26,447 bases of DNA, taken from a virus. The DNA lies in IMG/VR virus record IMGVR_UViG_3300006853_000185, positions 1 through 26,447 of that record. One strand, written 5' to 3'. A program made the position numbers and the translations under genes. Numbering within the stretch: the stretch's first letter is position 1; each line of letters opens with the position of its first letter. Positions 26-21,072 of this stretch are shown here, one piece after another. The notes under the pieces were generated by a model. That model had not been told where the DNA came from, ran no database searches, and saw only the letters and a program-made list of their open reading frames with translations.

Positions 26-1120
26 ATGTTAATAATATTGGAAGGTCCTGATGGTTCTGGCAAGACGACGCTCGCGCAGGAGATCGCCGCTGAGCTGGGC
101 TGGACAACCAGTGACAAAATCGAGGTCTGGCACCGCGGCCGGCCGACCGGTCACCCACTGGATGAGTACCTGCGACCGCTGTACGGCTACCGACCCGGCA
201 CCGGTTACCACCTGATCCTGGACCGCTGGCACTGGGGCGAGGTCGTCTATCCGAAGATTCTCAACCGGCCGACGAGCCAGAACAGCGCTGTCTTCTGGGC
301 GATCGAGGCATATCTGCTGCGACTCGGTGCGTTGGTCATTAACTGTGACAATAACTTCACGTTCCAGTATCACAACATCTACCGTGAACGCGAGCTTGAC
401 GGTACTTCCGACGCCTGGCAGATCACTCACTTGAACCGGATTCGTGACGAGTTTTCTCGTATGATCTATCGCTCGGCGCTACCGTCGTTGACGTATTCCT
501 ACGGCCACGACCCCCAACCCAATATCATCGACTTAGCGCGCCGCTACGAGACTCAGGCACGTGAGCTCAACGACTTCGTGACGTACTCTGGTCCGGTCAA
601 ACCTCACATGCTGCTGCTCGGTGACGTTCGCAACCTGCAGCCGATCGATCCACTGAACTCACCGGCATTCGTTCCCACCAAGCAGTCGTCCGGTCACTTC
701 CTACTCAAGTCGTTGACGTCTCTAACGTCCCGCACATGGGTGCACGGCGTCGGACTGGCCAACGTCAACGACGTCGACAACGTGTATAAACTATGGCAGA
801 CTCTCGGGCAGCCGTCAGTCGTCGCGCTTGGTAGGAAAGCCCACGCCCGTACTCTCTACGTGCTAAACCAGGAATATGGTGTCGTTCCCCATCCCCAGTA
901 CGTCCGTCGGTTTCACCACGGTAAAAGTGAGCAGTACGGCTGGCTCATCTGTCAGGCCAGCCAGACGAGAGAGGACTACAGCAAGTGGCCACAGTCATCC
1001 ACGCCCGTGACGGGCGAACCGCCTACGTCGATGTCATCACCAAGCTCCGGCTCTTTGGCGTCAGCCGACCCAGTCGTAACGGCCCGACCCGTGACCTCGG
1101 ACACACCACTATCATCCTAG
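26..1120 (+). CDS. dNMP kinase-like P-loop protein fused to a uracil-DNA-glycosylase-fold domain
   Basis: Two domains are visible in 364 residues. Residues 1-190 form a P-loop kinase of the thymidylate kinase type, with Walker A GPDGSGKTT at 7-15 and a DRW..GE.VY stretch near 66-75 resembling the DR(F/W) motif of dTMP kinases. Residues 191-312 resemble the uracil-DNA glycosylase superfamily: an opening LLLGD strand (196-200), SSGHFLLKSL (221-230), ANVND (245-249), PSVVALGRKAH (263-273) and a VPHPQ motif (287-291) where family 4/5 enzymes have the catalytic-loop HP. The last ~45 residues are Ser/Pro-rich and overlap the next gene, so they may be out-of-frame filler. The kinase could supply dTMP or modified dNMP phosphorylation, or act on hydroxymethylated DNA bases. 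The kinase call is firm; substrate and glycosylase activity are inferred. The ATG at 26 places the P-loop at the usual N-terminal position. Confidence 0.8.
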   Translation: MLIILEGPDGSGKTTLAQEIAAELGWTTSDKIEVWHRGRPTGHPLDEYLRPLYGYRPGTGYHLILDRWHWGEVVYPKILNRPTSQNSAVFWAIEAYLLRLGALVINCDNNFTFQYHNIYRERELDGTSDAWQITHLNRIRDEFSRMIYRSALPSLTYSYGHDPQPNIIDLARRYETQARELNDFVTYSGPVKPHMLLLGDVRNLQPIDPLNSPAFVPTKQSSGHFLLKSLTSLTSRTWVHGVGLANVNDVDNVYKLWQTLGQPSVVALGRKAHARTLYVLNQEYGVVPHPQYVRRFHHGKSEQYGWLICQASQTREDYSKWPQSSTPVTGEPPTSMSSPSSGSLASADPVVTARPVTSDTPLSS

Positions 1121-1845
1121 ACGAGCCGTGCGACGCGCTACCTATCGACGTCGGTCGCGGACTCAGCGAGCGGATCGCCGCGCTAGAGGCGATCCAGCTA
1201 GTTGGCGCCTTCTCTGACCCCGACTGGCTCGTCGAGAGGGCTCCCCAGCTGTCTCCCTACAGGGAGCCGTCCGGTGCGTTCTGGGGCGCGTACGGACGCC
1301 GGATCGGCTGGCAGATCCGCGACGCCGTCGCCAAGCTGCGTGCCGACCCGTGGACGCGCCAGGCCGTCGCCACTCTCTGGGATCCCATGTACGACAACTA
1401 CCCGGAGAAGCGTGACTATCCGTGCACCGTCGCGCTCGGCTTCACGCTGCAGCCGTCGTTCACCGATAGCCGGCTCAACATGCACGTCACGATGCGCTCA
1501 AACGACGCGTGGCTTGGACTACCGTATGACATGTTTCAGTTCACCCAGCTCTTCCAGACCGTCTGCCGCTGCCTGGACGTCCGACCCGGCACGTACACTC
1601 ACACCGCGTGGTCGCTGCACCTCTACGACCGAGACGTCGACCGCACGTACGACGTCGCGCTAGCCGGCGACACCGGCTACCGGTTTGACCCGACCGGTTT
1701 CGGTGAACCGAACATGTCGTTTACCGACGTCAGCCAGCGGGCGCACGTGATCGCGCTGACCCCGGACAAGATCGACTGGGAGCTGACGCCGAGCGAGAGG
1801 TGGTACCGTGACGCTATCCATGGTAATTCGACCCAGCTGGCATGA
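985..1845 (+). CDS. ThyA-superfamily enzyme, probable dCMP hydroxymethylase or thymidylate synthase
   Basis: The 286-residue protein follows the thymidylate synthase fold throughout: E68 (in LEAIQLVG), FWGAYGRR, DYPC with catalytic Cys147, RSND (171-174), LGLPYD (177-182) and HLY (212-214). Compared with E. coli ThyA the nucleophile, phosphate-binding Arg-Ser and His/Tyr pair are kept. The residue equivalent to Asn177 is Asp182. In this superfamily Asn selects dUMP, and Asp is typical of dCMP-using enzymes such as T4 gp42, so dCMP hydroxymethylase is the favoured reading. An ordinary ThyA making dTMP is the alternative. The GTG start at 985 has a GAGAGG ribosome site about 11 bases upstream. 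It overlaps the preceding kinase gene by 136 nt and the following dCMP deaminase by 38 nt. The family call is very secure; substrate specificity is inferred from one key residue. Confidence 0.88.
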   Translation: MATVIHARDGRTAYVDVITKLRLFGVSRPSRNGPTRDLGHTTIILDEPCDALPIDVGRGLSERIAALEAIQLVGAFSDPDWLVERAPQLSPYREPSGAFWGAYGRRIGWQIRDAVAKLRADPWTRQAVATLWDPMYDNYPEKRDYPCTVALGFTLQPSFTDSRLNMHVTMRSNDAWLGLPYDMFQFTQLFQTVCRCLDVRPGTYTHTAWSLHLYDRDVDRTYDVALAGDTGYRFDPTGFGEPNMSFTDVSQRAHVIALTPDKIDWELTPSERWYRDAIHGNSTQLA

Positions 1846-2305
1846 AGTGCGGCTGGCGATGGCCGCCGAGCTGGCCAAGCGCAGCCTATGCAGCCGTGAC
1901 CAGGTCGGCGCGGTGGTTGTCGACAAGTACAACAAGATCATCGGTGAGGGCTACAACGGCCCGCCGCGTGGCTTCTGGCACGGTGGAGAGCCGTGTAACA
2001 AGTGGTGCCAGCGTACGATGAACTTTAAGCTCGCGGGTGACGATGGACTTCATACAACGTATGATGACTGTCCGTCGCTGCACGCCGAGGCCAACGCCCT
2101 GTTGCAGGCCGACCGCTCACTATGCCTCGGTGGCACCATCTTCGTGACGAGCCACATCTGCATGGGCTGTGCTAAGCTCATCGCCAACTCCGGCCTGGGA
2201 CTGCTGGTCGTTCGGTCCGTTGTCAAGGATCACCGACGCTCGGAAGAGGTCTACAACTTCCTGCGCGACTGCAAGATCGAGCTGGGTATCTGGGAGGACA
2301 GGTGA
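1808..2305 (+). CDS. deoxycytidylate (dCMP) deaminase
   Basis: A 165-residue zinc-dependent cytidine/deoxycytidylate deaminase. The catalytic HAE is at 92-94 (SLHAEANAL), and the second zinc motif is CMGC (118-121). The usual Pro of PCxxC is Ile here (ICMGC). C63 and C67, in EPCNKWC, match the accessory structural zinc site of T4-like dCMP deaminases. It converts dCMP to dUMP, feeding thymidylate synthesis and lowering the dCMP/dCTP pool. The GTG start at 1808 lies inside the end of the ThyA-like gene, just behind a GAGAGG ribosome site. Its stop overlaps the polymerase start as GTGA, so the three genes are probably translationally coupled. Next to a ThyA-like enzyme with a dCMP-type active site, it would either compete for or balance the same substrate. 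Confidence 0.93.
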   Translation: MTLSMVIRPSWHEVRLAMAAELAKRSLCSRDQVGAVVVDKYNKIIGEGYNGPPRGFWHGGEPCNKWCQRTMNFKLAGDDGLHTTYDDCPSLHAEANALLQADRSLCLGGTIFVTSHICMGCAKLIANSGLGLLVVRSVVKDHRRSEEVYNFLRDCKIELGIWEDR

Positions 2306-4107
2306 CCGGTACCGGGGTACTTGACCGCGTCAAGCTTCACTACATCGAGTCGTTCGACGACGTCCAGGCGTACATCGACTGGTTCTCCAACAAGGTTTAT
2401 GATGACCCGATCGCCGTCGACACCGAGTCGACCGGCTTCTACTGGCACCGTGATGACTACGTCCGGATGGTCCAGGTCGGTGACGAAGTCGACGGCTGGG
2501 CAATGCGCTGGGACCGATTCTCGGGCCTGTTCGAGGCGACGATCGCCGCACACGAGGGTCCGATCGACCTGATGAACGCCAAGTTCGACTACGCGTTCCT
2601 GCGCAAGGCCGGCGTCAAGCTTAGGCAGCCGCTGATCCGCGACGTCGGTGTCATGTCGTACGTTCTCGAGCCGCACATGTCACGCGCGCTCAAGAACCAG
2701 GCCAAGCGGCACGTCGACCCGCGCGCCGGCGCGCTCCAGTGGCAGCTCGACGAGGCGATCGGTGGTCGCAGCGAGTGGACGTGGGCGACGATCCCGCACG
2801 ACTTTCCGCTGTACTGGCAGTACGCCGCGATGGACCCGGTGCTGACCGCTCTGATCCGTGAGCACCACTGGCCGCTCGTTCAGGAGCGCGCGCCGCGCGC
2901 CTATGAGATCGAGAACGAGTTCCAGTGGGTCGCGCTTAAGGCCGAGACGTACGGCGTCTGCATCGACGTCGACTACGCGGATCGGCACTACTCCAAGTTC
3001 ACCGCGTACTGCGAGGACGTCGAGCGATGGTGTGAGAGTGAGTACGGCGTCAAGCCGGGCAGCAACCAGGCCATCGTGCGCAAGCTGGTCGAGCTTGGTT
3101 TCAGTGAAGATCACTACTTCTCTAAGTCAACCGCCAAGGGCGCGGTCGCGCTCGACTCTAGCGTCCTAGAAGTCATCGATCACCCGCTCGCGCAGGCGGT
3201 TCTCCAGCGGCGGCAGCTGCAGAAGATCGCATCAACGTACCTGCGGTTCTACGTCGGTCACGTCGACTCGAACTCGCTGATTCACCCGTCGATCAACACC
3301 GTCGGCGCGCTGACCGGCCGGATGACCGTCTCGGAGCCCAACCTGCAGAACCTGCCGGTCCGCGGCACCAACCCAGCGCACAGGGTCGTCCGCAACTGCG
3401 TCGTCGCGCGGCCCGGTCACACGCTTATCATGGTCGACTTCGACCAGGTCGAGATGCGCGGACTGGCGATCGACTCCGGCGACGCCGGTTTGATCGCGGC
3501 GTTCCAGACCGACGAGGACTTCTTCGTCTCGATCGCGCGCCAGGTCTACGACGATCCGACGCTGGTCAAGGCGGACCCGCGCCGGCAGCCGGTTAAGAAC
3601 GGCATGTACGCCCGGATCTACGGCGCCGGGCTGGTCAAACAGGCCGCCACGGCCGGCGTGTCCGTCGAGCAGATGCGCTATGTCAACACGTCGCTGAACC
3701 TCAAGTTCCCGGGCATCGAGTCGTACGCGCGCGGCATCATCGACCAGGCGATCCGCGACGGTCGCAACGAGGGCGGACTGGCGTTCACGACCTGCTCGCT
3801 GACCGGCCAGCGTCACTACGCCGAGCGCGGCAAGGAGTACGCGCTGGTCAACTACAAGATCCAGGGGTGGGCCGCCAAGCTGTTGAAGCTCAAGGCGCTC
3901 GAGTTAGACGCGGCCGGTCTCGGTGACTACATCATCGCGTTCATCCATGACGAAATCATCTTTGACATGCCGAATGACCTGGTCCGTGACGCGGTGCACA
4001 CCATTCAAAAGATCATGAACGACACGACGATGTTCCCCGTCGCGATCACGGCCAGCGTCTCGACGGGGCAGCGGTGGGGAGAGAAGAAAGAGTGGAGTGA
4101 AGATTAA
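2302..4107 (+). CDS. DNA polymerase I (family A) with 3'-5' exonuclease domain
   Basis: A 601-residue replicative-type family A polymerase lacking the 5' nuclease domain. The DEDDy proofreading exonuclease is intact: D40/E42 (VDTES), N92-D96 (NAKFD) and Y174..D178 (YAAMD). The polymerase core has motif A at 379-386 (DFDQVEMR), motif B with K432, Y436 and Y440-G441 (KNGMYARIYG), and motif C HDE at 549-551. Tyr436 occupies the position of Phe762 of E. coli Pol I, as in T7 polymerase, so discrimination against dideoxynucleotides should be weak. The GTG start overlaps the dCMP deaminase stop by 4 nt, and the stop overlaps the next ATG (TAATG). It is the presumed main replication polymerase, acting with the helicase, SSB-like and nuclease genes downstream. 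Confidence 0.96.
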   Translation: MTGTGVLDRVKLHYIESFDDVQAYIDWFSNKVYDDPIAVDTESTGFYWHRDDYVRMVQVGDEVDGWAMRWDRFSGLFEATIAAHEGPIDLMNAKFDYAFLRKAGVKLRQPLIRDVGVMSYVLEPHMSRALKNQAKRHVDPRAGALQWQLDEAIGGRSEWTWATIPHDFPLYWQYAAMDPVLTALIREHHWPLVQERAPRAYEIENEFQWVALKAETYGVCIDVDYADRHYSKFTAYCEDVERWCESEYGVKPGSNQAIVRKLVELGFSEDHYFSKSTAKGAVALDSSVLEVIDHPLAQAVLQRRQLQKIASTYLRFYVGHVDSNSLIHPSINTVGALTGRMTVSEPNLQNLPVRGTNPAHRVVRNCVVARPGHTLIMVDFDQVEMRGLAIDSGDAGLIAAFQTDEDFFVSIARQVYDDPTLVKADPRRQPVKNGMYARIYGAGLVKQAATAGVSVEQMRYVNTSLNLKFPGIESYARGIIDQAIRDGRNEGGLAFTTCSLTGQRHYAERGKEYALVNYKIQGWAAKLLKLKALELDAAGLGDYIIAFIHDEIIFDMPNDLVRDAVHTIQKIMNDTTMFPVAITASVSTGQRWGEKKEWSED

Positions 4108-4367
4108 TGCAGTACTGGTCTTGGATTCTAGCCACGATCGGAATCACCGCAATGTGGCTTGCCGGTCGACATAACAAGCTCGGTTGGCTGATCGGTGTCG
4201 CTGCACAGATCATTTGGTTTGTTTACGCGATCGTCACTCGACAGTGGGGTTTCATCGCCACAGCGATCGCTTACAGCTTCGTCTACGCCCGTAACTGGTA
4301 CCGCTGGCGTCAGCTTGAACATGCTGTAACCAGTCCGGTAAGAGAGTCAGAGAGTGTGAGTATATGA
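4107..4367 (+). CDS. Small membrane protein, PnuC-like
   Basis: An 86-residue protein with roughly three hydrophobic segments (about 4-20, 25-43 and 48-63), separated by short charged or Trp-rich turns such as LAGRHNK and TRQWGF, and a polar tail. The repeated GW, IW and WYRW pattern, and especially the NWYRWRQ end, resembles half of a PnuC-type nicotinamide riboside/mononucleotide transporter. It is far shorter than a full transporter, so a different membrane role is possible. The ATG overlaps the polymerase stop by one base, and its own stop overlaps the RuvC-like gene by 4 nt. This shows co-translation within the replication operon. Function cannot be assigned from sequence alone. Confidence 0.75.
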   Translation: MQYWSWILATIGITAMWLAGRHNKLGWLIGVAAQIIWFVYAIVTRQWGFIATAIAYSFVYARNWYRWRQLEHAVTSPVRESESVSI

Positions 4368-4816
4368 TACTCGTCGGTGTGGACCCTGGCAACGTGACCG
4401 GCGTTGCAGTCTGGTGGGACCCGGACTTCTACGACTCGTCCAAGCGCGGACGTGACGTCGACGTCGCTGAGGTTGAAGATTCAACGAAGGTTTCAGCGGT
4501 GATCCGCCGGATGCTCAACGGTCACCGGCCGCACCTCATCCTCGTCGAGCGGTTTACGCAGAACGCGCGCAAGACGCACCAGCCGACCGCCGGCGAGGTC
4601 ACCGGTGCCGTGAGATCGCTCGCGGAGGAGCTTCACTGTCGCTGCGTCTACCAGGCACCGTCGCCGGCCAAGAAGATCGGCACCACCGAGCTGCTCAAGC
4701 AGCTTGACTGGTGGACGCCGTCACGCGACGACCACGGCAACTCGGCCTGTCGGCACATCCTGCTCGGCATGGCGACGTTCCAACCCGTAAGGTTTGCGCG
4801 GCTGACCGGTATATAA
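4364..4816 (+). CDS. RuvC-like Holliday junction resolvase
   Basis: A 150-residue RNase H-fold nuclease. The first strand carries the catalytic Asp in GVDPGNVTG (D7), the second acidic residue is Glu62 in ILVERF, and the C-terminal acidic pair is in RDDHGNSACRH (D122/D123). These match the D-E-(H/D)-D pattern of RuvC and phage RuvC-like resolvases. It would cut branched recombination or replication intermediates before packaging, consistent with the surrounding polymerase, helicase and recombination genes. The ATG start overlaps the upstream membrane gene. The TAA stop lies inside a TATAAT-like hexamer. Confidence 0.85.
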   Translation: MILVGVDPGNVTGVAVWWDPDFYDSSKRGRDVDVAEVEDSTKVSAVIRRMLNGHRPHLILVERFTQNARKTHQPTAGEVTGAVRSLAEELHCRCVYQAPSPAKKIGTTELLKQLDWWTPSRDDHGNSACRHILLGMATFQPVRFARLTGI

Positions 4817-4817
4817 T
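4812..4817 (+). promoter_or_regulatory. Candidate -10 element (TATAAT)
   Basis: A perfect TATAAT hexamer stands in GC-rich surroundings, just before a 36-nt gap and the GAGAGGAG ribosome site of the next small gene. No convincing -35 hexamer lies 16-18 bases upstream. The nearest TTGCGC, at 4794, is only 12 bases away. It may be a weak or activator-dependent promoter for 4853 onward, or chance within the end of the RuvC-like gene. Confidence 0.3.
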
Positions 4818-4852
4818 AAGAACCATAGAAAAACGACGAGAGAGGAGCGACG

Positions 4853-5026
4853 TTGACGACACCGATAGGTGAAGAGCCGGAGATCGACGCGCACCAGTTC
4901 TGCAGCGTCGACTGCCCGTGCGGTCACTGGAGCGAGTACCGCCGCCGGGCGACGACCCGCGCGGACGGCCGACGCGGCAAGCCGAACCTCGACGTCATCG
5001 AGGAGAACCGCGATGCCGCACGCTGA
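4853..5026 (+). CDS. Small Cys-rich protein, 57 aa
   Basis: A TTG-started reading frame of 57 residues behind a strong AGAGGAG ribosome site (about 4840-4846). Near the middle it has a compact putative metal knuckle, C17-x3-C21-x-C23-x-H25, followed by an Arg-rich stretch and an acidic end. The start of the helicase gene overlaps its last 14 nt, which suggests translational coupling. In the other frame this region gives only a Ser/Arg/Thr-rich peptide, which supports this frame as the coding one. No family was recognised. A DNA- or protein-binding accessory to the helicase is only a guess. Confidence 0.65.
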   Translation: MTTPIGEEPEIDAHQFCSVDCPCGHWSEYRRRATTRADGRRGKPNLDVIEENRDAAR

Positions 5027-6884
5027 CGTCATCGAAGACCGGATCTTCGTCCAGACCGAGTGGAACGAGCGTGACCTAGTCAAGCTCATTCCCGGCGCAC
5101 GATGGCACACCGAGCGCAAGCTGTGGCACGTTCCGCTGACATGGGTCGCGTGCCTGCAGCTGCGCGGCGTCTTCAGGGAGCGGCTGACCGTCGGCAGCGC
5201 GCTCATCGAGTGGTCTACCGGTGTCTTTCTCGACCGGATAGAACCGGCGCAAATGCTGCGCAGTCTCAGTAAACCACACTCTTATGACGAGCGTGACCTG
5301 TTGCGCGCGTTCCAGCGCGCCGGCGTGGACTTTATGTCCGTTGCCGGTTCGTGCCTACTCGGTGACGATACGGGGCTCGGTAAGACGGTCCAGACGCTGG
5401 AGCTGTTCTCAGTCCTGCGCGTGACGGGAAACGGTCTACCGGCGCTTATCATCTGTCCAAAGTCCCTGAAGGTCAACTGGGCACGCGAGGCCGAGACGTG
5501 GCTTCCGCTAGCCAACACGTACGTGATTAGCGGCGGAGCCGTCCAGCGGCACAGGCAGCTGGTCGCGGCGTCGAAGGACCGCAACGCGCTTGTGATGGTT
5601 TCGTACGACACGCTACGCAGCCACTCGCGCCTAGCGCCGTACGGCTCGATCCGCCTGCGCCGGTGCCGTGAGTGTGGCGGCGTCGGTGAGCACGAGGTAC
5701 CGGCGTCACGCTGTGAGGTCCACCTCGGTGAGCTCAACTGGATCAAGTTCAAGACCGTCGTCCTTGACGAGGCGCACCGGATCAAGGATCCCGCGTCGAA
5801 GCAGACGCGCGCCGCCTGGGCCGTCGGTCACATGCCGCACGTTGAGCGCCGGTTCGCGCTGACCGGCACACCGATTGGTGACGCGGTTGACGACCTGTGG
5901 TCAATCATGCACTTCCTGGCACCGGACGAGCATCCCGTCCGCTCAACGTTCGTCGACCGCTACGCGCTGACGTCGTGGGGAACCTACGGCGGCATCGAGA
6001 TCTCGGGGCTCAATCCTGACACTCGGCGGGAGTTCTACGACGTCATCGAGCCGCGATTTCGTCGGATGCCCAAGGCGCTAGTCCTCGACCAGCTGCCGCC
6101 GGTCGTCCGCAGCCGGCGATACGTCGAGCTGTCTCCCAAGCAGCGCAGGGCGTACAGCGACATCGCCTACGGCAAGGAGAACGGCTACGCGCTGGTCACT
6201 AAGCTGCCCGACGGCAACATCCTCGTGGCACCAAGCGACCTGGAGACGCAGCTGCGCCTGATGCAGTTCTCCAGCGCCACGATGAAGCAAATTGGGATCG
6301 ACGAGAAGACCGGCAAGCCGAAGTTCGAGATGTGTGAACCGTCCTCCAAGATCGACGCGCTGGAGGAGTTCATCGGCGAATACGGCAACCGCCAGCTCGC
6401 GGTCTGCGCCGAGCACCGCCAGCTGATCAATTTAGCGGCGCACCGGCTCGACAAGATCGGGATTAAGTACAGCCTGGTCGTTGGTGGGCAGCGGGACTTC
6501 GAGCGCGACTCGGCGCTGCGTCAGGCCGTCAAGGGCGACGTCCAGGTGCTGCTGTTCACAATTCGCGCCGGCGGCGAGGGTCTGACGATGACGTTTACCG
6601 ACACGCTCGCGTTTCTCCAGCGGTCATGGTCAATGCTAGCCAACCTGCAGACCGAGGGCCGGATCAACCGGATCGGCGCCGAGAAGCACGACTCGCTCAA
6701 CTACGTCGATTTCATCGCGGACACCGACGCCGAGCAGGTCCAGCTGACCCGGCTGTATCAGCGGCTCGAGCGGCTCGAAGAGATCACGCGTGACCGCGAG
6801 ACGCTGCGCGCCGCCGGCGTCGACGTCCGCGCGCTCGACGCCGAGGAGCAGCAGATCCTCGCCGGAAACCTGGGGGTGCTGTAG
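5013..6884 (+). CDS. SNF2-family DNA helicase/translocase
   Basis: A superfamily 2 SNF2-type ATPase of 623 residues. The N-terminal ~60 residues (GARWHTERKLWHVP) resemble the HARP-like region of SMARCAL1-type annealing helicases. Motif I is GDDTGLGKT (117-125), motif II DEAH (252-255), motif III LTGTP (283-287) and motif VI QTEGRINRIG (546-555). A likely zinc knuckle is inserted before DEAH (C218, C221, C234, H237). ATG 5013, behind GAGGAG, is chosen as start. Upstream in-frame codons from 4869 encode a low-complexity peptide in the wrong frame of the preceding small gene. Likely roles are fork remodelling or strand annealing during replication and recombination. Confidence 0.92.
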   Translation: MPHADVIEDRIFVQTEWNERDLVKLIPGARWHTERKLWHVPLTWVACLQLRGVFRERLTVGSALIEWSTGVFLDRIEPAQMLRSLSKPHSYDERDLLRAFQRAGVDFMSVAGSCLLGDDTGLGKTVQTLELFSVLRVTGNGLPALIICPKSLKVNWAREAETWLPLANTYVISGGAVQRHRQLVAASKDRNALVMVSYDTLRSHSRLAPYGSIRLRRCRECGGVGEHEVPASRCEVHLGELNWIKFKTVVLDEAHRIKDPASKQTRAAWAVGHMPHVERRFALTGTPIGDAVDDLWSIMHFLAPDEHPVRSTFVDRYALTSWGTYGGIEISGLNPDTRREFYDVIEPRFRRMPKALVLDQLPPVVRSRRYVELSPKQRRAYSDIAYGKENGYALVTKLPDGNILVAPSDLETQLRLMQFSSATMKQIGIDEKTGKPKFEMCEPSSKIDALEEFIGEYGNRQLAVCAEHRQLINLAAHRLDKIGIKYSLVVGGQRDFERDSALRQAVKGDVQVLLFTIRAGGEGLTMTFTDTLAFLQRSWSMLANLQTEGRINRIGAEKHDSLNYVDFIADTDAEQVQLTRLYQRLERLEEITRDRETLRAAGVDVRALDAEEQQILAGNLGVL

Positions 6885-6989
6885 GTGGAGGTCGTCAAGC
6901 TTGTCCTAAGCTGGCTCTGCGGCTGCGCGTGTGCCACCGTCGTGGCCGTCGGATTCATAGCCTGGTGGTTTAAGGATGTGTACAGGTGA
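6885..6989 (+). CDS. Single-pass membrane microprotein, 34 aa
   Basis: A GTG-started frame beginning right after the helicase stop, with a G-rich ribosome-site-like stretch about 10 bases upstream. The 34 residues hold one hydrophobic helix (about 4-28) containing three Cys, two of them in CGCAC, and end in the charged WWFKDVYR. The stop overlaps the next GTG as GTGA, as between other genes here. Function is unknown. A membrane-anchored effector or a minor accessory is possible. Confidence 0.55.
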   Translation: MEVVKLVLSWLCGCACATVVAVGFIAWWFKDVYR

Positions 6990-7144
6990 CCACTATTGAA
7001 GTTCTTCTTTGTCTTTGTGATAAGTTCACAAAGTGGTATGATAACGTTTGCCGATGTGGTCATCGTAACATTGAACACATCGATGAGACTGGTTCGTGTA
7101 CCGGTGAAAGCGTCTTAGAACGAGGTTTAAATGACCGTAGTTGA
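6986..7144 (+). CDS. Small putative zinc-binding protein, 52 aa, AT-rich gene
   Basis: A GTG-started 52-residue protein with Cys/His at C9, C11, C22, C24, H26, H31 and C38. The CRCGH...H......C arrangement is common among small phage proteins thought to bind zinc. The gene is noticeably more AT-rich than its neighbours and overlaps both flanking genes (4 nt upstream, 14 nt into the Cas4-like gene). A palindrome and promoter-like elements sit inside it at 7013-7042, so the stretch may serve both as coding sequence and as a control region. Coding status is therefore likely but not certain. Confidence 0.6.
   Translation: MTTIEVLLCLCDKFTKWYDNVCRCGHRNIEHIDETGSCTGESVLERGLNDRS
7013..7042 (+). promoter_or_regulatory. 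Promoter-like site with overlapping palindromic operator
   Basis: A perfect 8-bp inverted repeat, CTTTGTGA (7013-7020) and TCACAAAG (7026-7033) with a 5-nt spacer, overlaps a -35-like TTGTGA (7015-7020). It is followed, 16 bases on, by an extended -10, TGG-TATGAT (7034-7042). This fits a repressor- or activator-controlled promoter firing toward the Cas4-like nuclease at 7131, with a leader of about 80 nt. Its location inside a small reading frame is the main caution. Confidence 0.5.
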
Positions 7145-8159
7145 CGGCGTCCGTCTCGTGTCGAACTCTGAGGTCCAGACGTTCAAAGACTGCCCGCGCA
7201 AGTGGTGGCTGGCCTGGTACCGCGGCCTCAAATTGCGTAGGCGCGCGGTTACCAGTGCAGCCTCAACCGGCACACGAATCCACGTCGCTCTGGCGGCGTT
7301 GTACTCGCCGAACGGCGCGACAGCGGATGCCCTGCGGATGCTGGGATACGCGCAACGTGCCGACCAGCGTGAATTCGACACGCAGCTCTCGGCGGCACAG
7401 TTCTCCGAACACGGCGAGTCCGAGACGTCGCGACTTAACGAGGAGTACGACAAGCTACTCAAGGCGTTCGACCTGGAATACGCAATGATAGAGGGCTACG
7501 TTGAGTGGCTCGCGGAGACCGGCGCTGACCAGAACCTAGAGGTGATCTCGGTCGAGCAGCGGGTCGAGGCCGAGTTCTGCAACGAGGAGACCGCGTCCAA
7601 GAGGGAGTGGCCCAACCCGGTCAAGCTGATCGCCAAGCTCGACGCGCGCGTGCGCAACGCGCTGACCGGCGCGGTTAAGTTCATCGACCACAAGTCGGTC
7701 GGCTCGCTTCATGACCCGGTGCTTGGACTCAACCAGCAGATGCGTCACTATCACGTCATCGACGACCTGCTGACCGAGCCAGGACAGCCGCGCGCCGAGG
7801 GAGCGCTCTACAACATGCTGCGCAAGGTCAAGCGTACCCGCGCCTCAAAGCCGCCATACTACGCGCGGGTCCCGATTGACCACAACCGCTACGAGCTGAT
7901 CAATTACACAGCACAGCTGATTGGCATAATCGACCGGCTCAACGACGCGACGCAACTGATAAACGATAGGCCCGAGATGCATCAGGCGGTCGTACCGCCG
8001 CGGCCGTCGCGCGACTGCACCTGGAAGTGTGAATTCTTCAAGATCTGTCGGATGTTCGACGACGGCAGCCGCGTCGAGGCCGCGATAGAGGAGCACTACG
8101 TCGCCGGCGACCCGCTGGCGTACTACGACGACAAGGAGGAAAGTGGAGAGAGTAATTGA
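7131..8159 (+). CDS. Cas4/RecB-like PD-(D/E)XK nuclease with Fe-S cluster
   Basis: A 342-residue nuclease. Nuclease motifs are H51 (TRIHVAL), D171 (LIAKLDARV), D186-x-K188 (FIDHKS) and the QxxxY box Q203-Y207. Four Cys typical of Cas4/AddB iron-sulfur clusters are C21 (CPRKWW), C296, C300 and C306. In phages without CRISPR this family is a recombination or end-processing exonuclease, and no CRISPR array is present here. The ATG at 7131 lies behind GAACGAGG. The 3' end overlaps the Sak4-like ATPase by 17 nt, forming a nuclease, annealing/recombination ATPase and SSB module (7131-9484). The family call is strong; exact polarity and substrate are inferred. Confidence 0.9.
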   Translation: MTVVDGVRLVSNSEVQTFKDCPRKWWLAWYRGLKLRRRAVTSAASTGTRIHVALAALYSPNGATADALRMLGYAQRADQREFDTQLSAAQFSEHGESETSRLNEEYDKLLKAFDLEYAMIEGYVEWLAETGADQNLEVISVEQRVEAEFCNEETASKREWPNPVKLIAKLDARVRNALTGAVKFIDHKSVGSLHDPVLGLNQQMRHYHVIDDLLTEPGQPRAEGALYNMLRKVKRTRASKPPYYARVPIDHNRYELINYTAQLIGIIDRLNDATQLINDRPEMHQAVVPPRPSRDCTWKCEFFKICRMFDDGSRVEAAIEEHYVAGDPLAYYDDKEESGESN

Positions 8160-8919
8160 GCGGCAACGTGTCCTGTCTCAACTGTTTCACTCAGCATCTA
8201 AGGCGGGAAAGTCGACGCTGTCCAGTACCGCGCCAACGCCCCATCTCGTGTTAGATGCGGAGGGCAGCTGGAGCTTCATTGAAGAGATGGGTTACAAGTC
8301 GGGGATACCGCTGCGCAAGAAGCTGTGGGATCCGCTGAAGGACGTCGTCCCGCGGTGGGACGATACGTGGGACGTGATTCGCGTTCACGTTGACTCGTGG
8401 CAGGTACTCAGCCAGACGTACATGCACCTGACGCAGTCTAAGTGGGACTTCGTCTCTCTAACCGTCGACTCGGTGACGGAGTCTCAGCGGCGCTGCAAAG
8501 CCAACATCAAGGGAACCGGACCGATGCAGATCCAACAGTGGGGCATGCTGCTCGACAGCATGGACGCGCTAATCCGCGGCTTTCGTGACCTGCTGTTCCA
8601 GGCCAACCCACTGCGCGTCGTGACGTTCAACGCTGAGACAGCGATGAAAGACGGCAAGTGGCGTCCGTTCATGCAGGGCCAGATCCGTGACACAATGCCA
8701 TATTGGGTCGACATCTGCGGCTACCTGTTCACCGAGATGCGTCCCGACGGTGACCAGCAAGTCAAGTTCAAACGCATGCTGGTTGGTGAGGGTATCAACG
8801 ACGCCTACGTCACCGGCGAGCGCGTCCAGGGACGCCTACCCGATATCATCGATAACCCCAACATCTCGGCTATGCTGGCCGCGGTGTACCCGACAAGTCA
8901 GGAGCTAGCACGTGGCTGA
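8143..8919 (+). CDS. Sak4-like RecA-fold ATPase (putative recombinase)
   Basis: A 258-residue RecA-like NTPase. The P-loop region is SASKAGKS (17-24), followed by the LVLDAEGS strand characteristic of phage Sak4-type ATPases. The Walker B-like strand is SLTVDSVTE (about 105-113). The first Gly of the GxxxxGKS loop is Ser17, an unusual change. Sak4 proteins promote single-strand annealing together with a cognate SSB, and an SSB-like gene follows directly. The GTG at 8143 is very close (3 nt) to a strong AAGGAGG, so a slightly different start is possible, but no better in-frame start is seen. Confidence 0.8.
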   Translation: MERVIERQRVLSQLFHSASKAGKSTLSSTAPTPHLVLDAEGSWSFIEEMGYKSGIPLRKKLWDPLKDVVPRWDDTWDVIRVHVDSWQVLSQTYMHLTQSKWDFVSLTVDSVTESQRRCKANIKGTGPMQIQQWGMLLDSMDALIRGFRDLLFQANPLRVVTFNAETAMKDGKWRPFMQGQIRDTMPYWVDICGYLFTEMRPDGDQQVKFKRMLVGEGINDAYVTGERVQGRLPDIIDNPNISAMLAAVYPTSQELARG

Positions 8920-9484
8920 CACCAACTGGGCCGATCTTCACAAGCACGCGACGACGTCGCTCGAGGGTGAGTTTCCCCTCATGATCGTCGAGGCGACGGC
9001 GACCAAGACGAACGACCAGACGAAAGATATGATCAAGTGGAAGGCGAAGATCGAGTCGGGTCCGTTCGTGGACCGACCGATCAGCGGCAACTTCACAATC
9101 TCACCAGATTCACCCATCGCGCTACGGATCTTCTTCTCGCAGATGTCCGTCCTCGGCTTGGACGGCGTATTTTTTCAGGCCAACCCGAACGCGCCCGTCG
9201 AGCTGATCGCGCAAGCGCTCGTCGGACGGCGCGCGATCGGTGTTCTCGGTACCCGCCAGTGGCAGGGCCGCGACTTTGATGAGGTCAAGGAGTGGAAGCC
9301 GGCGCTCGGTGGTCCAGGTGGCTCTGCCCTCTCTGCGGGCCCGCTCGGCGGACACGTTGCGACGCCCGCAACGGCGCTCGCCGGTGGCTCTCCGGTCACC
9401 TCGCCGGCCTCTCCGGCGGCTGCTCCGTCGTCCCCGGTTGCCGTCGCGCAGCCGCAGACCGCGCCGCCAGTAATCAACTTCTAG
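8912..9484 (+). CDS. Single-stranded DNA-binding-like protein
   Basis: 190 residues, with an OB-fold-like first part (about 1-130: repeated beta segments such as FPLMIVEATAT, MIKWKAKIES and RPISGNFTIS, with basic and aromatic residues). A long Pro/Ala/Ser/Gly-rich disordered tail follows and ends in PPVINF. Real SSB tails usually end in acidic residues before the terminal Phe. Here the tip keeps Phe but lacks the acidic patch. Position just after the Sak4-like ATPase (8-nt overlap) supports a ssDNA-binding partner role. GTG start. The SSB call rests on architecture and context more than on a signature motif. Confidence 0.65.
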   Translation: MADTNWADLHKHATTSLEGEFPLMIVEATATKTNDQTKDMIKWKAKIESGPFVDRPISGNFTISPDSPIALRIFFSQMSVLGLDGVFFQANPNAPVELIAQALVGRRAIGVLGTRQWQGRDFDEVKEWKPALGGPGGSALSAGPLGGHVATPATALAGGSPVTSPASPAAAPSSPVAVAQPQTAPPVINF

Positions 9485-9498
9485 ATATATGATCATAT

Positions 9499-9533
9499 GG
9501 TAGAGTGGTGGATGTTAGATCCGCCGCTCTACC
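9499..9533. terminator. Strong hairpin before the glycosyltransferase gene (terminator or leader element)
   Basis: A 15-bp stem (9499-9513 with 9519-9533, GTTAG loop, two G-T wobble pairs) lies in the 70-nt gap between the SSB-like and glycosyltransferase genes. It is not followed by a T-run, so it would be an imperfect intrinsic terminator, or an RNA-stability or attenuation element. Immediately upstream is a 12-bp palindrome ATATGATCATAT (9487-9498). The GAGAGGAG ribosome site of the next gene follows from about 9539. Confidence 0.55.
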
Positions 9534-9554
9534 GTCTTAGAGAGGAGAGAGAAG

Positions 9555-10820
9555 GTGAAGAGACGAATCGGCTACGCCAAGCTCGGCCGCTCGATGCCGC
9601 TGCAGCTCGGTGACTGTGGCTCTAACGGCGGTGACGTTGAGATGATTCCGACGCTCCAGCTGCTCGCCGAGCGTCACCCAGACGTCGAGTTCGTTATCAT
9701 CGGTCGCAACTCCGGTGAGGAGCCGGCGCGCGTCGGCCTACCTGCCAACATCACCAATCCGTGGACCGGTTGGTGGCCCAAGATCCGCGCTGAGATGAAC
9801 GCAGCGAAGCTGAATCATCCGGCTCTAAGCGTCGACGAGCACCTACGACTTGCCGAGATCTTTGACCGGTACACACGCGACGCCTTTGTGCTGCTTGACG
9901 GCGTTGTTATGTGGCTTGGCCAGCACGGCACAACACACACTCCGCTGCCGTCAATTAAAGATCGCAGCGTCTTGACCAAACCATATGACTCATTGTCACT
10001 CTACGGCGGCTACCTGCTGCGCGGGATCAACGCGTGGCGCGACGTCGATCCGCATAATCGTGAGGAGGTGCTGCTCAACCCAGACCCGCGCAACGTGCCA
10101 AAGTACCGGGACGGCCGGTATCCGTGGCGGCACGCCGTCTTGAGCCAGCACGACCAGGTAAACGCGATTAAGCACGAGGAGGGTGACCGGGTCGTTTCGT
10201 CGACGGTTCTCAGCGTCTACTCGCGCCTGGAGATCTCGGGTCTGCTCCCTAGTACGCCGTTCACCAACCTCATTAAGTTCAATGACGACCACAACCGACC
10301 GCACGACTTCGGCATCGTGTTCAATGAGACACGGCGTGACGTCGCGCTCGAGAAGTCACGACGTTACATCCTAGAGAAGTGGGTGTTCCCGCTGTCTCCC
10401 GGCTTTATCTACGGACAATGGAGCGACGCAACTCGGCGGCAGCTCGGCATCCGGATTGAACCGATCGACGTGCTGAACTACTTCAGTACGATCCAGACCA
10501 CGCGCTGCACGTTGACGACCCCGTCATCTGGCTCCGGCTGGGCGACTGCCAAACCGTGGGAGTGCTTCGCCGCCGGCGTGGTCTGCTTCTTTCACCCAGC
10601 GTACGACGACCAGAACCACATACTCAACGACGCACCCTACGCGCTTGCGTCGTGGCTGCGCGTCCGTCACCCGATTGACCTACGTGACCGGATCCGCTAC
10701 ATGCGAGACAACCCAGAGTATTGGCAGGAAATCGTTCGGCTTCAACGCAATCACTACCTAAAAGCTATCGACGAGCTCAGCTACCTAACAAAGATCGAAC
10801 AGAGACTGGGACTGGACTAA
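9555..10820 (+). CDS. GT-B-like glycosyltransferase (possible DNA-base glycosyltransferase)
   Basis: 421 residues. The N-terminal half has a Rossmann-like layout (VEFVIIGRNSGEE near 48-60). The C-terminal half contains GSGWATAKPWECFAAG (326-341), which resembles the donor-binding 'K..E..A.G' segment of GT-B glycosyltransferases. The closing helices (RDRIRYMRDNPEYW) are also typical of that fold. A GTG start follows GAGAGGAGAGAGAAG. Its stop overlaps the ATG of a sugar nucleotidyltransferase (TAATG), so the sugar donor and transfer enzymes are probably co-expressed. Together with a dCMP-type ThyA homolog in the same early direction, glycosylation of modified DNA bases is a reasonable hypothesis. 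Another acceptor cannot be excluded. Confidence 0.68.
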   Translation: MKRRIGYAKLGRSMPLQLGDCGSNGGDVEMIPTLQLLAERHPDVEFVIIGRNSGEEPARVGLPANITNPWTGWWPKIRAEMNAAKLNHPALSVDEHLRLAEIFDRYTRDAFVLLDGVVMWLGQHGTTHTPLPSIKDRSVLTKPYDSLSLYGGYLLRGINAWRDVDPHNREEVLLNPDPRNVPKYRDGRYPWRHAVLSQHDQVNAIKHEEGDRVVSSTVLSVYSRLEISGLLPSTPFTNLIKFNDDHNRPHDFGIVFNETRRDVALEKSRRYILEKWVFPLSPGFIYGQWSDATRRQLGIRIEPIDVLNYFSTIQTTRCTLTTPSSGSGWATAKPWECFAAGVVCFFHPAYDDQNHILNDAPYALASWLRVRHPIDLRDRIRYMRDNPEYWQEIVRLQRNHYLKAIDELSYLTKIEQRLGLD

Positions 10821-11506
10821 TGGACGCGATAATCCTCGCCGGCGGGCGCGGCACCCGCGTCATGGAGCTGGCTCCCGAGTTCCACAAGCCGCTGCTGCCA
10901 GTCAACGGCGTCCCGATGGTGACGCTGGCCGTCGACCTGGCGCTGCGCGCCGGCGTCACGTGTCCCGTCGTCGTGGCCGCGCCCGCCAACACCGAGGCGA
11001 TCTGCGGCGCACTGGACGGCCGACCCGCGTTCGTCGTCATCCAGCGCCAGCCGCTCGGCGCCGGCCACGCGCTGCTGCTCGGGCTGCAGGCCAGTCCGCG
11101 CCCGCTCGTCGACTGCGATCGGGTGCTCGTGCTACTCAGTGACAACGTCTCGACGGACACCGACGTCACCGCGGTGATGCAACACCCAACCGCGATCGGG
11201 ATCCAGTACATCGAGCGGGTCAACGCGTTTCGCTTCGCGCGGCTGAACGACGACGGCCGCTGGTGCGAAAAGGAACGCCTCAAGCTTGACGGTCCGCCCG
11301 TAGCGTGTTGGGTTGGACCGTTCATCGGCTGGCGCAACCGAATGGTGCGGGTGCTTGCCGAGGCGGTCGCCGCGCGCAAGCCGAATGAAGAGGTCTACGT
11401 CGGACCCCACCTCGGTAACTTCATGTACAGCGAGACGAAGTGTCCCCTCGTGCCGGTCGACTCGCTCGACCTGGGCGTGACGGACGAGTACCGGAGGTTA
11501 ACATGA
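10820..11506 (+). CDS. Sugar-1-phosphate nucleotidyltransferase
   Basis: A 228-residue NTP-transferase of the RmlA/GlmU N-domain type. The signature LAGGRGTR is at 6-13, KPLLPV at 23-28, a metal-binding Asp in LLSDN near 108-112, and an LGAGHAL nucleotide-loop segment near 78-84. It would form an NDP-sugar from NTP and a sugar-1-phosphate. ATG 10820 is chosen because it begins MDAIILAGG, exactly where this family starts, and overlaps the glycosyltransferase stop by one base. An upstream in-frame start at 10721 would add residues out of phase with the preceding gene. It is the likely source of the activated sugar used by the adjacent glycosyltransferase and perhaps by the later glycan cassette. 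Confidence 0.9.
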   Translation: MDAIILAGGRGTRVMELAPEFHKPLLPVNGVPMVTLAVDLALRAGVTCPVVVAAPANTEAICGALDGRPAFVVIQRQPLGAGHALLLGLQASPRPLVDCDRVLVLLSDNVSTDTDVTAVMQHPTAIGIQYIERVNAFRFARLNDDGRWCEKERLKLDGPPVACWVGPFIGWRNRMVRVLAEAVAARKPNEEVYVGPHLGNFMYSETKCPLVPVDSLDLGVTDEYRRLT

Positions 11507-11646
11507 ATGAAAACGAGACTGAAGAGATGAACGACGGTAAAATGAACTGGCCGGCCGCGGTCGTCAACGTCGTACTTATCCTGGCCGTCGTCGCGATCGT
11601 ATTCATTATCTGCGGCAACGACATCTTGAAGGGCTGGCTGACGTGA
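11503..11646 (+). CDS. Single-pass membrane microprotein, 47 aa
   Basis: An ATG start overlapping the nucleotidyltransferase stop (ATGA), with a clear GGAGG ribosome site at 11493-11497. The first 15 residues are acidic (MNENETEEMNDGK), followed by one hydrophobic helix (about 17-38) and a short tail. A topology with the acidic N-terminus on one side of the membrane is expected. The stop overlaps the next gene by 4 nt. No family was recognised; it may be an accessory membrane protein of the operon. Confidence 0.65.
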   Translation: MNENETEEMNDGKMNWPAAVVNVVLILAVVAIVFIICGNDILKGWLT

Positions 11647-12317
11647 CAACTGACAAACTGGAGCACCTGATCCGCATGCAGCTCAACCTGCAACGTGAAT
11701 TTGGCTTCAACTTCGACACGATGCCACACGATGAGCAAATCGCGTACATCCGCGACCACCACCAGGCTGTTATCATGGAAATGTCTGAGGTGCTCAATGA
11801 AGTTGACTGGAAACCCTGGACGGTCAACCCCCAGCGGATCATTCACCGCGATGAGTACGTCGCCGAGCTCGTTGACGTCCTCCACTTTTGGATCAACATG
11901 ATTCTGGTAGTCAGCGGCAAGATGACGACCACCGAAATCGCGGACGAGATCTTCACCCGCTACGCGCTGAAGAACCGCGTCAATACCCACCGGCAGCTCG
12001 ACGGCTACGACGGCCGCTCAACCAAGTGCGCCGGCTGCGGTCGCGCGCTGGACGACGTCGCCGTCCGGTGCTGGCGACGCGGCGACCAAGGACGCTGCGA
12101 ACGCGACAACGTCGACATCAACTACGTCATAAGCGAGGGTCGCGACGTCGCCGCCATGCTTGAGATGTCACACGATGTCAACACCATCGATCCGGTCTGT
12201 TCTCACTGCAACCAAGAACTCAACAAACACGGCTGCGTCCCGGCGACGTCCGAGCGGTGGGGACACTGTGGCGCCGGTCAGCGGAACCTGCCGCCGATCA
12301 AGCTGCCGGTTACGTGA
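11643..12317 (+). CDS. All-alpha NTP pyrophosphatase (dimeric dUTPase/dCTPase type) with zinc-ribbon extension
   Basis: 224 residues. The N-terminal ~120 carry the metal-binding helices of dUTPase_2/MazG-like enzymes: E46..E49 (EMSEV), WKPW, E75..D78 (ELVDVLHF), then YALKNRVNTHRQ and GY. T4 dCTPase gp56 belongs to the same superfamily, so dUTP and/or dCTP hydrolysis to the monophosphate is predicted. The C-terminal part has two Cys clusters (C129, C132, C143, C152 and C186, C189, C198) that look like zinc ribbons. Such an extension is unusual for the family. The GTG start overlaps the previous stop. Its TGA is in the same frame as the following methyltransferase, five codons before that gene's GTG. 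Confidence 0.85.
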   Translation: MTTDKLEHLIRMQLNLQREFGFNFDTMPHDEQIAYIRDHHQAVIMEMSEVLNEVDWKPWTVNPQRIIHRDEYVAELVDVLHFWINMILVVSGKMTTTEIADEIFTRYALKNRVNTHRQLDGYDGRSTKCAGCGRALDDVAVRCWRRGDQGRCERDNVDINYVISEGRDVAAMLEMSHDVNTIDPVCSHCNQELNKHGCVPATSERWGHCGAGQRNLPPIKLPVT

Positions 12318-12329
12318 TACGGTTCCTCC

Positions 12330-13844
12330 GTGACGTATACGGCGATCGACTGCATGGGATTCGCCGGTGGCTTTACGCTCGGCGTCGTCCAAGCTGGCTT
12401 TAAGCTGATCGGCAAGCGCGAGAAGAAGGGCGGCTTCGGCGCCAAGAACTGCGAGGTCAATCGACACCTACTCGGTGACGGCTGGCAGACCGAGGCGTGT
12501 GATCCCAGCGAGTGGAGCGTCCCAGACGGGGGCGCTTCACTCGTCTTTGGTAACCCACCGTGTTCCGGCTTCTCGGTCCTAACGGATGAACGGTTCCGCG
12601 GCGCCGACTCGGCGATCAACCAGTGTATGTGGGACTTCGTCGAGTACGCCGGCCGCGTTAAGCCAGACATCGCGATCTTCGAGTCCGTCCAGCAGGCGTA
12701 TGGCCAGGGACGCGGCCTGATGCGCGCCTTACGCATTCGTCTAGACGGTCTTACCGGTGAACGCTACACGCTCTACCACGTGCTGCACAACGCGCTGTCC
12801 GTCGGCGGACCAGCGATGCGCAAGCGCTACTTCTGGGTCGCATCGCGGGTGCCATTCGGCGTCGACTGGCCCGAGATCAGTCGTACTCCCGTCCTAGAAG
12901 ACGTCATCGGTGACCTGCAGACTCTCGACCAGCGGTGGGACTCCCAGCGGTACTGGCTCGATCCGACGTGGTACTCACACCGGTTTCGTGACCGCTACGC
13001 CGACGGCTCATACTGGGTTGACGGCCACGTCTCGCTAGACGTCCCGTCGGTCCGCCGGACGCTCGACCTGCGAGACGGCGTCGAGTGGAATCCCGGCGAG
13101 TATATTCACACCGTTATGCGCCGGTACTTTGACACCCACGCTGACCTACCGCAGAGCTGGCACCACAAGCTAGATCAGCTCAAAAACCGCGACTTCCAGA
13201 TCGGTTTCACCGTTCCGATGATGTGGCGACCCGACCGACACGCACGTGTCGTCACCGGTGGGACTATGCTGCTCGGCGTCCACTGGGCCGAGCGCCGGAC
13301 GTTCACGCACCGTGAAGTTGCACGGATCATCGGTTTTCCAGACTCGTGGTTGATCGAACCGCTGCGAGGCACATCCGGATTGTTTATGACGTGGGGCAAG
13401 GGCATCACCGTCGACTGCGGTCGGTGGATCGCCAGCTGGGCGCGCCGGACGCTGGACGGTCAACCGGGCGCGCTGACCGGTGAGGAGATTGGCGCTGACG
13501 AGCGGCTAATTGACGTGACAAACGCCTGGAAGATGGCTTGTGGTACAGTCAAACTTGAACTTAACGCTAGGTGGAGGGAAGATATAGTGACTGAGACGGT
13601 TGAATCGCCGGTCGACGAGACGGCCAAGGGACGGCCACGCTCGGCCGAGACGGTCGAACGTGACCAGCGGGTCTTCGACACGCTGGCATCCGCCGGCATG
13701 ACTCGCACGGAACTGGCGGTGCAGCTGGACGTTCCGCCGAACCTGGTTTACCTAAGCCTGTGGCGCCTCAAGCGTGACTCGCGCGTCGAGCGCGTTCGGC
13801 ACGAGGGTAACTGGGTCTGGCAGCGCGTCGCCGGCGCGGTCTAG
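12330..13844 (+). CDS. Cytosine-C5 DNA methyltransferase with C-terminal winged-helix domain
   Basis: 504 residues. C5-MTase motifs occur in order: motif I CMGFAGGF (8-15), motif IV GNPPCSG with nucleophile C78, a motif VI variant FESV (117-120, normally ENV), motif VIII MRKRYFW (163-169), and late motifs HREVARIIGFPDSW and GKGITVDCGRW. Residues from about 440 (RTELAVQLDVPPN...SLWRLKRD) form a helix-turn-helix/winged-helix module not usual in this family. It probably protects phage DNA from host restriction. GTG 12330 is the only start that keeps motif I; it lacks a clear ribosome site, suggesting translation coupled to the upstream gene. A second start (13587) within it may give a separate protein. 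Confidence 0.9.
   Translation: MTYTAIDCMGFAGGFTLGVVQAGFKLIGKREKKGGFGAKNCEVNRHLLGDGWQTEACDPSEWSVPDGGASLVFGNPPCSGFSVLTDERFRGADSAINQCMWDFVEYAGRVKPDIAIFESVQQAYGQGRGLMRALRIRLDGLTGERYTLYHVLHNALSVGGPAMRKRYFWVASRVPFGVDWPEISRTPVLEDVIGDLQTLDQRWDSQRYWLDPTWYSHRFRDRYADGSYWVDGHVSLDVPSVRRTLDLRDGVEWNPGEYIHTVMRRYFDTHADLPQSWHHKLDQLKNRDFQIGFTVPMMWRPDRHARVVTGGTMLLGVHWAERRTFTHREVARIIGFPDSWLIEPLRGTSGLFMTWGKGITVDCGRWIASWARRTLDGQPGALTGEEIGADERLIDVTNAWKMACGTVKLELNARWREDIVTETVESPVDETAKGRPRSAETVERDQRVFDTLASAGMTRTELAVQLDVPPNLVYLSLWRLKRDSRVERVRHEGNWVWQRVAGAV
13587..13844 (+). CDS. Nested in-frame winged-helix protein, 85 aa (internal start in the methyltransferase gene)
   Basis: Inside the methyltransferase reading frame, a GTG at 13587 (codon 420) is preceded by GGAGGG at 13573-13578, eight bases away. 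This is a better ribosome site than the methyltransferase itself has. Upstream lies a possible extended -10, TGG-TACAGT (13541-13549). The product would be a free 85-residue protein: an acidic/basic linker, then a helix-turn-helix (MTRTELAVQLDVPPN), a second helix and a wing ending near WVWQRV. It could regulate the operon. The full-length fusion remains equally possible, since no stop separates the two. Confidence 0.5.
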   Translation: MTETVESPVDETAKGRPRSAETVERDQRVFDTLASAGMTRTELAVQLDVPPNLVYLSLWRLKRDSRVERVRHEGNWVWQRVAGAV

Positions 13845-19277: not shown

Positions 19278-19366
19278 CGGACCTCATCATAGTCGACGTA
19301 CCACATGCAGTAGCTGAGATAGAAGATCCATAAGCCAAGCAAGGCATCATACAGCAGTCTTACCAC
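19265..19366 (-). CDS. Membrane microprotein, 33 aa
   Basis: Between two glycosyltransferase genes, a GTG frame begins inside the stop region of the upstream gene (7-nt overlap), with GGAAGG 8 bases before it, and overlaps the next gene by 13 nt. The 33 residues contain one aromatic-rich hydrophobic helix (LLYDALLGLWIFYLSYCMWY) and a charged end. Its fit into an otherwise empty 82-nt gap supports it. Function unknown; it could anchor the glycosylation enzymes. Confidence 0.5.
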   Translation of the reverse strand: MVRLLYDALLGLWIFYLSYCMWYVDYDEVRWIR

Positions 19367-19962: not shown

Positions 19963-19973
19963 TCAGTAACCCG

Positions 19974-21067: not shown

Positions 21068-21072
21068 ACCTC

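Follow-up and report, generated by a model that had tools for sequence, protein, structure and literature searches.

A predicted T4-type cytosine hydroxymethylation and glycosylation pathway with an exchangeable sugar-donor position in a probable actinophage family

Introduction

Does the early region of the virus fragment IMGVR_UViG_3300006853_000185 encode what is required to build a sugar-modified cytosine? The whole stretch analysed, a 26,447-base IMG/VR fragment, is called the window here. The original prediction proposed that five same-strand genes between positions 985 and 12317 form a T4-like pathway for cytosine modification and glycosylation, in an actinophage with its own sugar-donor supply. 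These genes were read as a ThyA homolog of the deoxycytidine monophosphate (dCMP) type, a dCMP deaminase, a dUTPase/dCTPase-type hydrolase, a glycosyltransferase (GT) and a sugar nucleotidyltransferase (NT). Glycosylated cytosine is established in phages of Gram-negative bacteria, namely T4, RB69 and Thanatos. From the gene content, predicted structures and related loci described below, we think it likely that the early region encodes a T4-type pathway of cytosine hydroxymethylation and glycosylation in a probable actinophage. Very probably, some or all of the cytosines in the phage DNA are replaced by a sugar-decorated form.

Results

The early block is the left half of the window and forms one plus-strand run. 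In order, it encodes a deoxynucleoside monophosphate (dNMP) kinase, the ThyA homolog, dCMP deaminase, PolA, a short open reading frame (ORF) resembling a nicotinamide mononucleotide (NMN) transporter, a RuvC-like resolvase, a helicase, an exonuclease, a Sak4-like annealing protein, an unknown ORF, the GT, the NT, a dUTPase_2-type hydrolase and a C5-cytosine methyltransferase. All five predicted genes are present on the plus strand, within or at the limits 985-12317. They are interspersed with replication and recombination genes and are not a bare five-gene operon, and two constant members fall just outside those limits, the kinase upstream (26-1120) and the methyltransferase downstream (12330-13844). 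A megablast search of the region against annotated phages gave no match, and relatives were therefore sought at the protein level. The order of the cassette is kept in about 40 relatives, which excludes chance.

The ThyA homolog (985-1845, plus strand; PF00303, 4.6e-17; phrog_5131, 9e-34) is the predicted dCMP hydroxymethylase. Its Cys147 and Asp182 align with Cys148 and Asp179 of T4 gp42, the Asp standing where thymidylate synthase has Asn, and both residues are kept in 28 of 28 relatives, including three Gordonia phages, Enterococcus phage 9183 and DSL-LC01; the gene is thus of the Asp type, as had been proposed. The two T4 residues have been probed by mutagenesis (Graves 1992, as cited in PMC8670742), and Asp at this position marks dCMP-using enzymes and modified-cytosine contigs (PMC8670742). 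The closest PDB sequences are those of the CMP 5-hydroxymethylase MilA. Loss of the thymidylate synthase Trp segment was also considered as a mark of hydroxymethylases and was dropped, as T4 gp42 appears to retain that Trp.

An ordinary thymidylate synthase within a general nucleotide-supply set is the least probable of the alternatives that we considered. The gene is annotated as a thymidylate synthase in relatives, and a dCMP deaminase with a dUTPase would suit the supply of thymidylate (dTMP). However, the Asn is replaced by Asp in every member, and 6 of 21 relatives encode a separate ThyX, so that ThyA is not needed for dTMP in those six.

A different reading makes the ThyA homolog a synthase of 5-hydroxy-dCMP, like that of RB69 and Mosigvirus, with the sugar placed directly on C5 through 5-hydroxycytosine. 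The RB69 ThyA homolog, described as a 5-hydroxy-dCMP synthase (PMC13390438), has the same Cys and Asp, and an RB69-type arabinose module occurs in relatives of the window. The motif after a conserved Arg-Ser points the other way. The window family reads MRSNDxWxG and T4 gp42 reads MRSNDVVFG; in the RB69 enzyme the corresponding stretch is MRSQNCAVV, without the Asp that usually comes after Arg-Ser. Even relatives with the RB69-type sugar module keep this Asp (MRSQD in L032; loci are numbered L001 onward), and the nearest PDB relatives of the family are CMP hydroxymethylases. At the level of the motif, MRSND favours hydroxymethylation over 5-hydroxylation, and we consider a 5-hydroxy-dCMP synthase unlikely.

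The genes predicted to supply and clear nucleotides around the hydroxymethylase also have T4 counterparts. The P-loop dNMP kinase (26-1120, plus strand) belongs to the thymidylate kinase family phrog_761 (3e-14). The top Foldseek matches of its AlphaFold 2 (AF2) model (pLDDT 82) are YorR and thymidylate kinases. Fold and PHROG family thus both identify the dNMP kinase of a T4-type system, with a putative gp1-like role in phosphorylating modified dCMP, and the gene adjoins thyA in those relatives whose contigs extend to that place. The kinase also has a conserved C-terminal domain (window 580-990, residues about 185-320) with the motif series PAFxPxxTSG...VVALGRxA...VPHPQYxRRFHH. These motifs suggested a domain resembling uracil-DNA glycosylase (UDG), a reading given up after a profile search and a Pfam UDG search were both negative. 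The dCMP deaminase lies at 1808-2305 (plus strand; PF00383, 1.9e-14; phrog_174, 1e-35). The all-alpha dUTPase_2/dCTP pyrophosphatase (11643-12317, plus strand; PF08761, 3.9e-12) has a C-terminal Cys-rich domain. A hidden Markov model of the hydrolase family finds the T4 dCTPase gp56 at 9e-15 and 38 bits in a 2-sequence database. By this profile match the hydrolase is homologous to gp56; dCTPase as opposed to dUTPase activity is a prediction.

The GT (9555-10820, plus strand) matches Pfam weakly, with PF13524 at 4e-4 the sole hit, and its assignment comes from the fold. A model built from 33 homologs (AF2 pLDDT 88, pTM 0.87) has a GT-B fold, and its Foldseek matches in the PDB at ranks 1-6 are all T4 beta-glucosyltransferase (BGT; 1.8e-8 to 2.6e-7), ahead of the next GT-B family at 8.9e-6. 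In a viral structure library, an entry named DNA beta-glucosyltransferase ranks second. The fold thus places the protein in the T4 BGT superfamily of DNA-base glycosyltransferases, and TM-scores of only about 0.5-0.6 indicate that the relation is remote. The sole PDB sequence match of the family profile is again T4 BGT, at a non-significant E of 0.55, with TAKPWE over TLRVWE; in a 41-sequence set, T4 BGT and the GT family match at 1.3e-4. T4 R269 and E272 correspond to K333 and E336 of the window, both invariant in the family. No relative of the GT was found in the bacterial genomes searched. The predicted activity, modelled on BGT, is sugar transfer to 5-hydroxymethylcytosine in DNA. Gene by gene, the T4-like interpretation held, with counterparts of gp42, gp56, BGT and dCMP deaminase and a dNMP-kinase fold.

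Among 40 GT loci collected in IMG/VR, 29 records were searched for ThyA; 26 contain it, and the remaining three start only downstream of where it would lie. Co-occurrence across related genomes had been put forward at the outset as a check, and relatives with the GT and no Asp-type ThyA as what would speak against the pathway. Apart from these contigs cut before ThyA, no such relative was seen.

The same coupling recurs in other phage lineages. Enterococcus phage 9183 (L056, 5908-10860), a cultured phage of a Gram-positive host, has a contiguous kinase, Asp-type ThyA, dUTPase, SIS protein, NT/kinase and GT, and its GT matches the window family at 1.9e-20. In the existing annotation of phage 9183, the Asp-type ThyA is called thymidylate synthase and the SIS protein phosphoheptose isomerase, and the GT is unannotated. 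Pseudoalteromonas phage XG4 (L055, 82-4261, unannotated) encodes in a row a T4-like hydroxymethylase with the Asp, a HAD-like ORF, an NT/kinase fusion and a GT of the window family; further on lies an ORF whose N-terminus resembles gp56. XG4 had been taken as a GT-without-ThyA counterexample, a reading overturned when a family-level search found the T4-like hydroxymethylase just upstream. Phage 9183 and XG4 are two unrelated cultured phages that give independent support for the coupling of GT and hydroxymethylase. In the cultured Gordonia phages Mareelih, GMA2 and GodonK and in DSL-LC01, the kinase-ThyA(Asp)-deaminase-PolA core is kept and the GT is different.

This distribution also bears on a reading that keeps the sugar off cytosine: the ThyA homolog would methylate dCMP, and the GT and NT would modify a glycan of the virion or the host surface. 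A single Asn-to-Asp change in thymidylate synthase gives a dCMP methylase (as cited in PMC8670742), and the window has a second glycosyltransferase cluster close to a tail gene. Against these points, the nearest fold to the GT is a DNA glycosyltransferase, the gene lies in the early region, and three unrelated phage lineages pair the GT with a gene of the hydroxymethylase type. In our estimate this reading is very unlikely.

The C5-cytosine DNA methyltransferase (12330-13844, plus strand; PF00145, 5.4e-19) is a constant partner of the cassette, present in 18 of 18 relatives' records, and a homologous gene is kept in Mareelih, GMA2 and DSL-LC01. Its catalytic motifs are intact, the PC-motif Cys (PPC) and the motif-VI Glu being invariant in 23 aligned homologs. 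An intact methyltransferase that is always present would suit a route in which it methylates DNA and a TET-like dioxygenase oxidises the product to 5-hydroxymethylcytosine for the GT. The Asp-type ThyA, the dCTPase-like hydrolase and the kinase would then be superfluous, and Tet_JBP gave 0 matches in 21 relatives' records, in a search that ran without a positive control. We regard the dioxygenase route as highly improbable and retain direct synthesis of the modified nucleotide as the preferred explanation for the locus.

The NT (10820-11506, plus strand; PF12804, 7.6e-12; PF00483, 3.2e-10), a predicted sugar-1-phosphate nucleotidyltransferase for donor activation, has RmlA and GlmU as its nearest solved relatives. 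Its ATG at 10820 lies inside the GT stop, with a one-base overlap, so that the two genes are probably translated together. One of four donor modules adjoins the GT at every GT locus except four, at which the contig breaks off within the GT or shortly past it; L002, among these, still shows the start of an NT. Module A is an NT alone (the window, L001 and L029), and a search of all three, including the 98.9-kb record of L029, gave no kinase match. Module B adds an APH-like kinase to the NT (L003-L008, L015, L037, L038 and L040). Module C, of RB69 type, combines an NT-kinase fusion with a SIS isomerase (L030-L035, where the contig is long enough), is homologous to the RB69 arabinose genes ORF053, 052 and 055, and has a SIS protein nearest to phosphosugar and arabinose-5-phosphate isomerases.

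Module D, at 19 loci, consists of a GT75 furanose mutase and an SDR epimerase, the latter cut off in a few. Among solved structures, its mutases come closest to GT75 entries (1e-29) of the MtdL type. They keep the autoglycosylated Arg, the GDPD Asp, FNSQ and RYDD, with the DDD motif in 15 of 16; these residues are needed for conversion of nucleoside diphosphate (NDP)-pyranose to NDP-furanose (PMC9937993). The module D SDR is nearest to GDP-L-fucose synthase; with the mutase nearest to MtdL-type GT75, a reading of module D as a supplier of UDP-arabinose only was given up. A fifth module, a flavin adenine dinucleotide (FAD)-dependent UDP-galactopyranose mutase, stands beside the GT that is DSL-LC01's own. 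At 27924-31069 of DSL-LC01 (L054), this mutase and an unknown 329-aa protein lie between the GT and MazG-type genes, at the position of the sugar slot.

Mapped onto gene trees, the module label must change at least five times for the GT, Sak4, the helicase and the methyltransferase and eight times for PolA, against a minimum of three for four states; L015, with module B, nests with module-D phages. These counts imply exchange of the donor genes around a core that was retained. Across loci, the slot is occupied by two unrelated furanose mutases and, in module C, by an isomerase whose product can form no ring other than a furanose, which suggests furanosyl cytosine. Judged by sequence, the donor modules of several relatives point to unusual, often furanose sugars of arabinose or galactose type. 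The proposal that the phage has its own sugar-donor supply stands in part: the window encodes the NT, and kinase and isomerase genes are found in the fuller modules of relatives and not in the window itself. The window donor would accordingly rely on host sugar-1-phosphate or on genes beyond the fragment, which is incomplete and may have left more donor genes outside.

A WhiB-family regulator outside the pathway (17804-18127, plus strand; PF02467, 6.9e-20 at 17828-18013) bears on the host. Of 19 records of other relatives, 16 have a WhiB gene, compared with Corynebacterium alone in a control set of 14 genomes. By this marker the host is probably actinobacterial, in agreement with the actinophage label given to the window at the start. 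The short ORF that follows PolA (4107-4367, 86 aa) has a partial NMN-transporter match (PF04973, 1.2e-6) and falls in phrog_2421 (unknown function). The second glycosyltransferase cluster (18204-22925, minus strand) adjoins a tail gene and comprises one GT-B and three GT2-type glycosyltransferases, a small methyltransferase and a three-domain NDP-sugar-type C-methyltransferase (PF08421/PF13489/PF08484); it may decorate the virion.

Discussion

The genes of the early block suggest the following pathway. The hydrolase would remove dCTP, and with it dUTP, to yield dCMP, which the Asp-type ThyA homolog would convert with methylenetetrahydrofolate to 5-hydroxymethyl-dCMP. The dNMP kinase could then lift this product toward the triphosphate for incorporation by the phage PolA, and the dCMP deaminase may turn surplus dCMP into dUMP for thymidylate. 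After synthesis, the BGT-like GT would add a sugar to the 5-hydroxymethyl group, the last activation step of the nucleotide-sugar being carried out by the coupled NT. Gene set and order, active-site residues, gp56 homology, the BGT-like fold and the coupling across lineages can be read from sequence or structure. From them we infer the chemistry at C5, the role of DNA as acceptor, which way each flux runs, and the sugar.

Several points weigh against this pathway. We know of no cassette member for which the nucleoside chemistry has been established. The similarity of the GT to T4 BGT is, by sequence alone, non-significant in the PDB search (E 0.55), and neither a sugar kinase nor an isomerase is encoded in the window. 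A constant C5-methyltransferase with intact motifs is at odds with complete cytosine replacement. Because fully C5-blocked cytosines leave no substrate, replacement is perhaps partial, or the methyltransferase acts elsewhere; possible options are partial replacement, methylation before the modified pool builds, and action on hydroxymethylcytosine itself. The ThyA fold also makes 5-hydroxy-dCMP in Mosigvirus (PMC13390438) and can likewise yield 5-methyl-dCMP.

With this locus, a complete T4-like gene complement is found in a family of soil phages, probably actinobacterial, that has a single exchangeable position for sugar genes. Such a slot suggests that phages change their DNA sugar under sugar-specific type IV restriction and base-excision defences, and the DNA sugar probably differs from one related phage to another. 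One could envision a soil actinophage family in which a fixed hydroxymethylating core and one GT family are combined with swapped donor modules to give different cytosine sugars. These would include furanoses from two unrelated mutases (GT75 and the FAD UDP-galactopyranose mutase), with the C5-methyltransferase working in the same pathway, for instance on residual or hydroxymethylated cytosines. We advance this fuller scenario tentatively, at somewhat less than even likelihood.

The biochemical plan is already known from T4, RB69 and Thanatos. To our knowledge, the new elements are the phage family, which is probably actinobacterial, a donor slot open to exchange, and the mutase forms of that slot. 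Literature searches on DNA furanosylation and on hydroxymethylcytosine in Gordonia phages turned up no description of the family; the 2025-2026 work on arabinofuranosylation and on 5-hydroxycytosine glycosylation in diverse viruses lies beyond those searches and may overlap with our findings.

Four known systems invite comparison. The GT75 NDP-pyranose mutases (MtdL and plant RGP/UAM; PMC9937993) share catalytic residues with the module D mutases of relatives. Unlike them, the module D enzymes are phage-encoded beside a gene resembling a DNA glycosyltransferase; they are absent from the window itself. The pentose-cytosine system of Shewanella phage Thanatos, as far as excerpts of PMC12838424 describe it, has a dCTPase, a dCMP deaminase, a hydroxymethylase-type ThyA and a sugar nucleotidyltransferase, as does the window. 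According to the same excerpts, that nucleotidyltransferase has been shown to be a UDP-xylose pyrophosphorylase. In contrast to the window family, Thanatos is a T4-like phage of a gammaproteobacterium with an NT/phosphotransferase fusion, and these excerpts make no mention of a C5-methyltransferase.

The arabinosyl-hydroxycytosine system of RB69 and Mosigvirus (PMC6024577, PMC13390438) has a sugar module homologous to that of the relatives L030-L035, with the NTP-transferase-kinase fusion and the arabinose-5-phosphate-isomerase-like SIS protein. The window has the NT only and, at the level of the motif, a T4-like ThyA and not that of a 5-hydroxy-dCMP synthase. RB69 ORFs 045-048, 050-053 and 055 gave no match to the GT family; the proposed arabinosyltransferase, ORF003c, was outside the compared set.

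T4 itself, with gp42, gp56, gp1, cd and beta-gt, shares with the window an Asp-type hydroxymethylase, a dCTPase-family hydrolase, a dNMP kinase, a deaminase and a BGT-fold GT. The window family differs in being that of a probable actinophage, with PolA-type replication, a constant C5-methyltransferase and a donor slot that varies between relatives. Whereas T4 draws on host UDP-glucose, the window has a sugar nucleotidyltransferase of its own.

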